From Vulcanococcus sp. Clear-D1 (GTDB taxonomy: Bacteria; Cyanobacteriota; Cyanobacteriia; PCC-6307; Cyanobiaceae): a stretch of DNA of 64,000 nucleotides. Shown here piece by piece: positions 1-3,876 of this stretch. A program made the position numbers and the translations under genes. Each line of letters begins with the position of its first letter. The stretch's first letter is position 1. The notes under the pieces were generated by a model. That model was not told where the DNA came from and searched no databases. It saw nothing but the letters and a program-made list of their open reading frames with translations. Location of the stretch: NCBI RefSeq assembly GCF_014654725.1, contig NZ_JACVZV010000018.1, positions 248,001 through 312,000 on the forward strand, read 5' to 3'.

Positions 1-2189
1 TTCTCGCCCTGGCCTTCCAGCACCGTGGCGGCGGCGCGGTAGTGGCCGATGTTGGTCATGCAGGAGCCGATGAACACCTCATCGATGCGATCGCCCGCCA
101 CCTCGCTCAGCGTCTTCACGTTGTCGGGGTCGTTGGGGCAGGCCAGGATCGGCTCGGTGATCTCGTCGAGGTTGATCTCGATCACGGCGGCGTATTCGGC
201 GTCGGCGTCGGCCTCCATCAGCACCGGGTTCTCGAGCCAGGCTTCCATCGCCTTGATGCGGCGGGCCAGGGTGCGCTCATCGCTGTAGCCGCGGGCAATC
301 ATGTTCTTGAGCAGCGCCACGTTGCTGCGCAGGTATTCGCTCACCGTTTCCACGGAGAGCTTGATGGTGCTGCCGGCGCAGGAGCGCTCGGCGGTGGCAT
401 CGGTGAGCTCAAAGGCTTGCTCGAGCTTGAGATCGGGCAGCCCTTCGATCTCCATGATCCGGCCGCTGAAGATGTTCTTCTTGCCGGCTTTCTCCACGGT
501 GAGCAGCCCCTGCTGGATCGCCACGTAGGGAATCGCGTTCACCACATCGCGCAGGGTCACACCCGGCTGCAGCGAGCCGGAGAACTTCACCAGTACCGAT
601 TCGGGCATGTCCAGCGGCATGGCGCCGATGGCGGCCGCGAAAGCCACCAGGCCCGAGCCGGCGGGGAAGGAGATGCCCAGGGGGAAGCGGGTGTGGCTGT
701 CGCCGCCGGTGCCCACGGTGTCGGGCAGGAGCATGCGGTTGAGCCAGCTGTGGATGATGCCGTCGCCGGGGCGCAGGGCCACGCCGCCGCGGGAGCTGAT
801 GAAGTCGGGCAGTTCAGCGTGGGTTTTGAGGTCCACGGGCTTGGGATAGGCCGCGGTGTGGCAGAAGCTCTGCATCACCAGATCGGCGGAGAAGCCCAGG
901 CAGGCCAGCTCCTTCATCTCATCGCGGGTCATCGGCCCGGTGGTGTCCTGGGAGCCCACGGTGGTCATCAGCGGCTCGCAGCTGGTCCCCGGGCGCACAC
1001 CCGCCAGGCCGCAGGCCTTGCCCACCATCTTCTGGGCCAGGGTGAAGCCCTTGCCGCTGTCGGCCGGGGCCGTGGGGCGGATGAACAGATCGCTGGCGGG
1101 GAGGCCCAGCTGGGCGCGCACCTTGTCTGTCAGCGAGCGGCCGATCAGCAGGGGGATGCGGCCGCCGGCGCGCACCTCATCGGTGATCGTGCTGGGCTTG
1201 AGCTCGAAGCGGGCCACGATCTCGCCGGCGGCCGGCTCCCCGGCGGCGCGCTCGATCGTGCCGGCGTAGGGGCGGATCGTGATCACATCGCCCGAGTTGA
1301 GGGCGGTCACGTCGCATTCGATCGGCAGGGCGCCGGAGTCTTCGGCGGTGTTGAAGAAGATGGGCGCGATCTTGCCGCCGAGCACCACGCCGCCGCTGCG
1401 CTTGTTGGGCACATGGGGGATGTCGGTGCCGGTGTGCCAGAGCACCGAGTTGATGGCGGATTTGCGGGAGCTGCCGGTGCCCACCACATCACCCACGTAG
1501 GCCACGGGGTGGCCCTTCTGCTTCAGCTCGGCGATCAGATCCAGGCCGCCGGGCATGCGGGTTTCCAGCATCGCCGTGGCGTGCAGGGGGATGTCGGGGC
1601 GGGTGGTGGCGTGGGTGGCCGGCGACAGATCGTCGGTGTTGGTTTCGCCCTCCACCTTGAACACCGTCACGGTGATCTCCGCGGGCAGCTCCGGCTTGGC
1701 GGTGAACCACTCGGCATTGGCCCAGCTGTCGATCACCCGCTTGGCGTACGGGTTGCTGGAGGCCAGCTCCAGCACATCGTTGTAAGCGTCGTAAACGAGC
1801 AGGGTGCGGCTGAGGCCCGTGGCGGCGGCCTCGGCGATGGCGGTATCACTGCTCGAGAGCAGCTCGATCAGTGCGCCCACGTTGTAGCCGCCGATCATGG
1901 TGGCGAGCAGGTTCACCGCCTCTACAGGGCTCACCAGCGGGCTGGTGGTCTTGCCCTGGGCCACGGCGCTCAGCCAGTCCGCCTTCACGTAGGCGGCTTC
2001 ATCCACACCGGGTGGGATGCGCTCGGAGAGCAGGTGCAGCAGGAAGGCCTCTTCGCCGGTGGGCGGTGCCTGCAGCAGCTCCGTGAGGTCCTGGCACTGG
2101 GCGGCCGTGAGCGGCAGGGCCGGGATTCCCAGGGCTTCACGTTCCGCAGCGGCGGCGCGGTACTCGGCAAGGAAGCTGCTGGCAACCAT
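1..2189 (-). CDS. acnB: Aconitate hydratase B, 3' end cut off by window edge
   Basis: TCA-cycle enzyme interconverting citrate and isocitrate in the cytosol; AcnB proteins can also act on 2-methylisocitrate. Read on the minus strand from the ATG at 2187-2189, the product begins [20 protein letters not shown] and continues with the AcnB N-terminal pattern ([13 protein letters not shown], then [16 protein letters not shown]), which is typical of AcnB and not AcnA. About 729 codons are visible out of a usual 860 or so, so the C-terminal end lies beyond base 1. The gene is divergent from the DAHP synthase gene, with about 140 bases between the starts. An open frame of 724 codons on the opposite strand is an antisense shadow. 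Confidence 0.93.
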
Positions 2190-2329
2190 CGGCGTAAGGG
2201 GCCCCTGCGGACCTGACGAACTGTGACGTGACACCCATTGTTCTTTGCCGCCTTGCCTTGCTCTGGTGGCAACGGCTGCAATCGGGCTTTTAGGCTTCCC
2301 TATCCCCCTGCCCCTGCGCGGCTGCCGGC

Positions 2330-3403
2330 ATGATCTCCACCTCTGATCTCCACGTGGTGGAAACCAGGCCCCTGGTGGCGCCGGCGCTGCTGCACCGCGA
2401 GCTGCCCCTGGGTGATGGAGCGGCGGCCACGGTGCGTGAGGCGCGCGAGCGGATCAAGGCGATCCTCCGGGGCGACGACCAGCGCTTGCTGGTGATCGTG
2501 GGCCCCTGCTCGGTGCACGACGTGGACGCCGCCAAGGAGTACGCGGCCGCCATTGCCCAAGAGCACGAGCGCCACCGCGATCAGCTGGAGGTGGTGATGC
2601 GTGTGTATTTCGAGAAGCCCCGCACCACCGTGGGTTGGAAGGGGCTGATCAATGACCCCCACCTCGATGGCAGCTACGACATCAACACCGGCCTGAAGTT
2701 GGCCCGCGGCCTGCTGCTGCATCTGGCGGAGATGGGCCTGCCGGCCGCCACGGAGTTGCTGGATCCGGTGGTGCCCCAATACATCGCTGATCTGATCAGT
2801 TGGACTGCGATTGGTGCACGCACCACCGAGAGCCAGACCCACCGCGAAATGGCCTCGGGGCTCTCGATGCCGATTGGCTTCAAAAACGGCACCGATGGCA
2901 GCGCCAGCACCGCCATCAATGCGATGGAGGCTGCTGCACGCCCCCACCATTTCCTGGGCATAAACAAAGAAGGCAGCGCCGCGATTGTGACCACCACCGG
3001 CAACCCCGATGGCCACCTGGTGCTGCGGGGCGGTAAGCAGGGCACCAACTTCCACACGGAAGCGATCGAAGCGGCGGCGGCGGCCCTGGAGAAAGACGGC
3101 CTACCCGCCCGGGTGATGGTGGATTGCAGCCACGGCAACTCCAACAAGGACTACCGCCGTCAGGGCGAGGTGGCCGCGGCGGTGGCGGAGCAGCTGCGCG
3201 CTGGCTCACCCCATGTGATGGGCGTGATGATCGAGAGCCATCTGGTGGCTGGTAACCAGAAGATCCCGGCGGATCTCTCGCAGCTCACGTACGGCCAGAG
3301 CATCACCGATGCCTGCATCGATCTGGGCTCCACCCGTGAGGTGCTGGCGGAGCTGGCTGGGGCGGTTGCGCAGGCGAAAAGCAAGTTTGCAGCACTGGTT
3401 TGA
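2330..3403 (+). CDS. aroF: 3-deoxy-7-phosphoheptulonate synthase (DAHP synthase), AroG/AroF type
   Basis: First step of the shikimate pathway: condenses phosphoenolpyruvate and erythrose 4-phosphate. The 357-residue product is close to the roughly 350 residues of the E. coli AroG/F/H class. Visible class motifs include [13 protein letters not shown] (phosphoenolpyruvate site), [30 protein letters not shown] and [13 protein letters not shown]. The start is the ATG at 2330; no strong Shine-Dalgarno is seen. Which amino acid inhibits it cannot be told from sequence alone, so the aroF/aroG choice of symbol is loose. A CIRCE operator follows only 12 bases after the stop but belongs to the next gene. 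Confidence 0.93.
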
Positions 3404-3415
3404 GCATGTGCCGAG

Positions 3416-3452
3416 GTGAATTAGCACTCGCTTGTTGGGAGTGCTAATTCAC
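3416..3452. promoter_or_regulatory. CIRCE operator (HrcA binding site)
   Basis: A perfect match to the CIRCE consensus TTAGCACTC-N9-GAGTGCTAA lies at 3421-3447. The palindrome continues outward without mismatch to give two 14-base arms (GTGAATTAGCACTC and its exact reverse complement) around the 9-base spacer GCTTGTTGG. CIRCE is bound by the heat-shock repressor HrcA and usually precedes groESL or dnaK operons. Here it lies 86 bases upstream of a small gene of unknown function, with no chaperonin nearby. It could in principle double as a hairpin after the DAHP synthase gene, but no T-run follows. Confidence 0.9.
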
Positions 3453-3537
3453 AGCGAAGTTTCAAACTGTTTGGCGTGAACAGCGCCCTGATCGGCGCTG
3501 CGTAGCTTTGATTCAGTCGCAATCAGGAGGTCTGCTG

Positions 3538-3876
3538 ATGACCTATCTCCTGCAGTTCTGTGGCGTGTCTGATCCCTTGCAGCTCTTCTATCTCGAGCAG
3601 AGCAGTGCGAGCGATGGGCAGGGGCCTGCCTTTGCGGGCTTTCGCCCCTTCCAGCTCGATGCGTTGCTCGGCTGGGCGCTGGATACGGCCCGGGGGCGTG
3701 GTTGGGAGCTTGATCTGATCCACACCACCGTGGTGGATGTGTGGTTGGAGCGCGCTGAAGCGATCCGTCAGTGGCAGTTGCGCCTGTTGGCGGAGCCCGA
3801 TGACCGCCGCTTGGTGGCTGGTCTGGGCACCCAGCACGACTGGGAGCGGCGCTGCGAGGCGATGCTTTTGGCCTGA
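3538..3876 (+). CDS. Hypothetical protein of 112 aa behind a CIRCE element
   Basis: No family recognised. The ATG at 3538 is chosen over an upstream in-frame TTG at 3508 because a strong Shine-Dalgarno (AGGAGG, 3525-3530) precedes it by 7 bases. The product is small, soluble-looking and mixed in charge, with aromatic residues near the N-terminus (LQFCGVSDPLQLFYLEQ) and an amphipathic stretch VVDVWLERAEAIRQWQLRLL that looks helical. There is no signal peptide or membrane segment. The CIRCE operator directly upstream predicts heat-shock control by HrcA, so a role in protein quality control is a reasonable guess, but only a guess. It converges on the kinase-like gene with 8 bases between them. 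Confidence 0.75.
   Translation: MTYLLQFCGVSDPLQLFYLEQSSASDGQGPAFAGFRPFQLDALLGWALDTARGRGWELDLIHTTVVDVWLERAEAIRQWQLRLLAEPDDRRLVAGLGTQHDWERRCEAMLLA

Follow-up and report, generated by a model that had tools for sequence, protein, structure and literature searches.

Genes and features at the locus

The window, i.e., the whole 64-kb stretch of DNA that was analyzed, harbors a DAHP synthase gene (2330-3403, forward strand; an ORF matching PF00793 with an E value of 8.6e-92), followed by a perfect palindrome (3416-3452, no strand), a predicted 5' leader extending from the operator to the start codon (3448-3537, forward strand), a small gene (3538-3876, forward strand), and a convergent ORF assigned to cluster C6 (3885-4562, reverse strand). 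Direct reading of the sequence bore out the first-pass annotation, which had described a perfect palindrome with 14-base arms containing an exact CIRCE element: the arms GTGAATTAGCACTC (3416-3429) and GAGTGCTAATTCAC (3439-3452) are exact reverse complements separated by a 9-base spacer (3430-3438), and the predicted HrcA operator within them, TTAGCACTC-N9-GAGTGCTAA (3421-3447, no strand), has 0 mismatches to the CIRCE consensus. This CIRCE is located 90 bp upstream of the start of the small gene and is the sole match with three or fewer mismatches in the 64 kb, where the chance expectation is 0.00.

The AGGAGG ribosome-binding site (3525-3530, forward strand) and the 112-residue gene that had been annotated behind the palindrome were likewise confirmed from the sequence and its translation, with the ATG at 3538 and the stop codon at 3874-3876. 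The dN/dS values against ten relatives (0.06 to 0.23, with third positions changing most) ruled out a spurious ORF and, together with the translation and the family alignment, indicate that this is a real, selected protein-coding gene. Two antisense frames are also open across it in the window, each of which contains stops in some relatives. Elsewhere in the window, a 724-codon frame (42-2216, forward strand) lies opposite a long reverse-strand gene, presumably aconitase-like, and has the appearance of a spurious antisense ORF such as arises in GC-rich DNA.

The convergent downstream neighbor, which we take to be dolichol/phytol kinase-like, had no Pfam match at an E value of 0.001, and its orientation leaves the small gene alone in its direction of transcription. 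On the other side, the DAHP synthase stop codon lies 17 bp upstream of the CIRCE and only 12 bp upstream of the palindrome, a plausible position for a terminator of that gene; the palindrome could then be a terminator, or else a chance repeat, unconnected with the small gene. However, it lacks a T run, no terminator-like match was detected, the CIRCE is exact, and a CIRCE-type site also precedes the gene where the DAHP synthase neighbor is missing. The terminator reading was rejected on the absence of a terminator-like match and the retention of the operator amid other neighbors, and we consider it, together with a chance palindrome, extremely improbable. The window leader yielded no sigma-70-like or terminator-like match, and -35/-10 blocks were not recognized around the aligned operator sites.

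Conservation of the operator and of the protein family

A family profile built from 36 homologues (alignment A1) detected homologues in 103 of the 250 genomes of the window's taxonomic family and in 136 of the 290 genomes of the class, own genome included in both counts, with no homologue in 147 of the 250 family genomes (≥90% completeness). At the phylum level, 38 of 116 genomes (own included) possessed homologues, and all 38 belonged to the class; the small protein family was thus found only in cyanobacteria in the searches made. The earlier designation as an orphan gene therefore fails with regard to lineage, since the family spans the cyanobacterial class, although Pfam and NCBIfam provided no family model for the window protein at E values up to 1. 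The closest named relative found was the protein of a Vulcanococcus MAG (95% identical), members from other families shared 28 to 32% identity with the window protein, and eight residues were invariant in A1 (G9, L14, G29, L40, D41, W56, W69, and W79). A phage or plasmid origin was also considered and rejected, as tblastn gave no match in phage or plasmid collections and no relatives were confirmed in viral contigs. In one genome (G057; L238, 3897-4193), a perfect CIRCE precedes a shortened gene copy of 65 residues, and a genome with the same genus code (G424) carries a full-length copy with the same operator.

Operators were searched up to 350 bp upstream of each homologue and accepted if they deviated from YNRGCACTC-N9-GAGTGCYNR at no more than one position or from the consensus at no more than three. 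By this rule, orthologues devoid of CIRCE, which the first-pass annotation had named as evidence against its proposal, were rare within the window's family, where 94 of 103 homologues carry a CIRCE-type operator 85 to 118 bp ahead of the start codon, and common outside it, where 27 of the 85 scanned homologues carry one and 58 have no site within 350 bp. The same rule returned 0 of 188 reversed and 0 of 3,760 shuffled upstream regions. Among the nine members of the window's family without a site (G064, G094, G114, G070, G078, G180, G245, G216, and G253), the first three are all the scanned members of genus g41, G180 has a degenerate site with two mismatches to the degenerate pattern, and G216 and G253 were counted as misses with upstream stretches cut by contig ends. 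Outside the window's family, the operator was present in all scanned homologues of f32 (14/14), f22 (2/2), f37 (2/2), and f29 (1/1), in part of those of f19 (2/3), f31 (1/4), f2 (1/4), f15 (3/10), and f24 (1/10), and in none of the remaining families (e.g., 0/7 in f12). The matches in f15 and f24 are weak (three mismatches), and the third f19 member (G300) has its operator at 325 bp, just beyond the scan cut. On the protein tree, the operator trait requires at least 12 changes among 115 rows, and gain and loss are indistinguishable on this poorly resolved topology.

Across the 94 sites of the window's family, 11 of the 12 inner arm columns reach at least 1.8 bits and the six outer ones about 1.0 to 1.4 bits, while spacer and flank columns contain at most about 0.8 bits and mostly less than 0.4. 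The extended arms noted at first are accordingly present in the window and are not general: only 9-base arms are conserved across the family, and some extension beyond them occurs within the window's genus. The outer bases often change together, giving the familiar TTAG as well as TTGG, CTGG, and TCAG, and in a set of 77 distinct operators the three outer positions are variable, yet complementary in 59, 74, and 72 of them. Related forms, mostly with TTGG on at least one side, occur in the groESL operators of the same genomes. Moreover, HrcA profile scores are 85 to 120 bits in the window's family versus 160 to 201 in other families, and on account of these lower scores, repressor and operator may have drifted together in the window's family. 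In one f32 genome, the predicted operator of the homologue forms a tandem array of three identical copies spaced by 57 bp (G470:C12:138851-138991).

Symmetric changes of the arms would preserve pairing in RNA as well, so the inverted repeat could in principle act mainly as a hairpin or thermometer in the leader RNA rather than as a DNA operator. Several observations argue against this. In other families, half of the distinct operators (13 of 26) have C-A as their innermost pair; the Synechocystis groES transcription start lies within the CIRCE spacer according to the consulted part of a published study (PMC2662882), a position from which only one arm would be transcribed; and the window leader folded from the spacer onward is no more stable than shuffled sequences (z 0.01). 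In addition, the Rfam scan of the leader gave a single match, far below its gathering score, leaving a known RNA family or thermometer unsupported. We regard an RNA-based function of the repeat as very improbable, and the operator reading is retained below.

The predicted HrcA regulon and its gene neighborhoods

The whole 2.96-Mb genome (G000) contains three CIRCE-like sites at up to three mismatches, one in the window and a second, with one mismatch, upstream of a GroES frame. The third (L003, 1501-1527; G000:C15:220685-220711) has three mismatches and lies, by eye, shortly upstream of a J-domain-like frame; it is probably a chance match. The genome also encodes HrcA (PF01628 at G000:C39:78575-79198, E value of 2.2e-28), which was detected in 55 of 60 genomes when this one is counted. 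Two near-complete genomes in which no HrcA was found (G027 and G033) possess neither a CIRCE nor the small gene.

A count of CIRCE-type sites, with up to one deviation from the degenerate pattern allowed, across 25 selected genomes from the window's family gave 52, comprising 25 upstream of groESL, 22 upstream of the small gene, and 5 elsewhere. The groESL-type sites lie 469 to 675 bp ahead of a Cpn60 gene, with enough space for groES, and no second Cpn60 gene had a CIRCE-type site at the cut used. The 16 chosen genomes of other families, by comparison, hold 48 sites, namely, 32 at 32 Cpn60 genes, 14 at the small gene, and 2 elsewhere. Because the second Cpn60 gene lacks a site in the window's family, unlike in these 16 genomes, groEL2 may have left the HrcA regulon there. 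Of 13 scanned f32 genomes, 12 show exactly three sites each; the remaining one, G470, reaches five through triplication of the operator of its small gene. One genome shows a one-mismatch CIRCE away from both Cpn60 and the small gene (G041:C62:25441-25467). Six genomes of the window's genus that lack a homologue (G001, G004, G007, G010, G014, and G022) contain a single CIRCE site apiece, three of these genomes being less than 90% complete; this single site proves little, since several gene-bearing genomes also show just one at that cut.

Gene neighborhoods differ among loci, and no neighbor is common to all of them. In the window, G204, and G063, the small gene is flanked by a same-strand aroG and a convergent gene. 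Within the window's family, aroG, the convergent gene, and other neighbors recur, and the convergent gene is present in G046 as well. G312, G351, and G343 have a divergent EamA transporter gene in common, and sister genomes also share their neighbors. Neighbors differ in G028, G191, and other families, and the operator is kept in many of these. At six loci (the window, G204, G063, G389, G419, and G407), the upstream gene has the orientation of the small gene, which makes the small gene the sole target of the operator there. The flanking genes in G407 encode GAPDH and a phosphorylase-superfamily protein. At some loci outside the window's family, the CIRCE sits between the small gene and a divergent EamA transporter gene (L236, 2611-3594; L250, 2825-3697; L293, 3144-4076), these loci coming from two different families, while a pyridoxamine oxidase-like gene (G424 and G057) or an FGGY kinase gene (G501) shares the intergenic stretch divergently; at such loci, the site could serve either side.

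Taken together, operator conservation, the null controls, the company of groESL among the sites, and the retention of the operator where neighbors differ make it very probable that the small gene belongs, as a conserved member, to the HrcA regulon, alongside groESL (and, in other families, groEL2). For the window itself, it is highly likely that the palindrome functions as an HrcA operator and that the regulon includes the small gene as a transcription unit of one gene. The proposal of a new HrcA-regulated gene is strongly supported by these comparisons (operator in 94/103 homologues, HrcA in 55/60 genomes, and 47/52 sites at groESL or the small gene). We infer from sequence that HrcA would bind this site and that the gene would be derepressed as follows. 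In the unstressed cell, GroEL would keep HrcA active, and HrcA on the CIRCE would block transcription; with GroEL occupied upon heat or protein misfolding, HrcA would fail, and the small gene would be derepressed along with groESL, its product then possibly acting with or beside GroEL/GroES, e.g., by serving a particular client as adaptor or modulator. Such a scheme agrees with the dependence of HrcA on GroEL and its release from CIRCE upon heat shock, as stated in the available part of a review (PMC7760821), which also mentions hrcA-mutant microarrays suggesting effects on some genes without CIRCE. Heat shock RNA-seq data exist for Synechococcus PCC 7002, as indicated in excerpts of the corresponding paper (PMC3468840).

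Possible roles of the small protein and comparison with known systems

Domain and structure searches (Pfam, NCBIfam, AlphaFold, and Foldseek) provided no domain or fold evidence linking the small protein to chaperonins or speaking to the part of chaperonin helper or stress adaptor that the first-pass annotation had suggested for it. Two AlphaFold models of low confidence (mean pLDDT of 63.8 and 57.1) both predict a mainly helical C-terminal two-thirds, with the first 30 to 40 residues left without resolved structure; a Foldseek search with the former model (pLDDT 63.8) gave no PDB match at an E value of ≤0.001, and a PDB sequence search found no relatives (best E value of 0.36). Weak family matches of other members, including C2c1_helical (E value of 0.00027, two members), Csf3 (E value of 0.0014, four members), and still weaker ones, were dismissed as chance since they touch just one to four of the 36 members and point to unrelated families.

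Cyanobacteria have duplicated GroEL genes, and their chaperonin clients include Rubisco. Considering the pairing of its operator with that of groESL, a role in helping or working with the chaperonin is our leading guess for the small protein, although one that falls somewhat short of probable. Equally likely is that HrcA controls the gene and that its product is a general heat protectant (of membrane, photosystem, or ribosome) sharing only the trigger with GroEL, with no physical link to it. Such an independent role is favored by the lack of a domain or fold tie to chaperonins, by 41 genomes in which the small gene and the Cpn60 genes are on separate contigs or separated by 39 kb or more, and by the six same-genus genomes (three of them <90% complete) in which the gene is absent while a groESL site is kept. 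The near-confinement of sites to groESL and the small gene in the 25 genomes of the window's family, with no second Cpn60 site, speaks against it and suggests a requirement linked to GroEL/GroES levels. More tentatively, the small protein could be a partner of GroEL/GroES that has so far gone undescribed in oxygenic cyanobacteria. It would then be an ancient third component of the regulon, alongside groESL and groEL2, with the window's family keeping the smallest regulon (groESL and the small gene) and the gene missing from many small genomes. The small protein appears to be under the switch of groESL, which in the window's family was observed at almost no further genes. This makes it a prime candidate for the role of a chaperonin cofactor, or of a protector of chaperonin clients, that has so far been missing from the picture in small freshwater and marine cyanobacteria.

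GroES, RbcX, and Raf1 are known small partners of the chaperonin system. The small protein resembles them in size and in its expected production with GroEL, but no Pfam or NCBIfam match among the 36 members points to any of them. Slr1674, a small heat-induced Synechocystis protein that affects the heat tolerance of photosystem II, is similar in being a heat-induced cyanobacterial protein without assigned function in the part of the report consulted (PMC2865547), but it belongs to an operon with spoU and hypA1, as given in excerpts of another study (PMC4759255). No HypA motif was detected when the 37 loci surrounding the small gene and its homologues were scanned, and a link with Slr1674, compared by gene context rather than by sequence, is unsupported.

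The consulted parts of three papers name groESL1 and groEL2 as cyanobacterial targets of CIRCE/HrcA (PMC4227741, PMC4390874, and PMC5381637). In searches of the open-access PMC literature, no report of the small gene or of a third cyanobacterial CIRCE target was found. The small gene would share with cyanobacterial groESL/groEL2 control the same operator, a repressor of the same family encoded in the genome, and the upstream placement of the site, but the targets there are chaperonins, whereas the small gene is not. The proposed regulation is well supported by sequence comparison, and it would bring an unstudied, class-wide protein family under the control that is known for the chaperonins.
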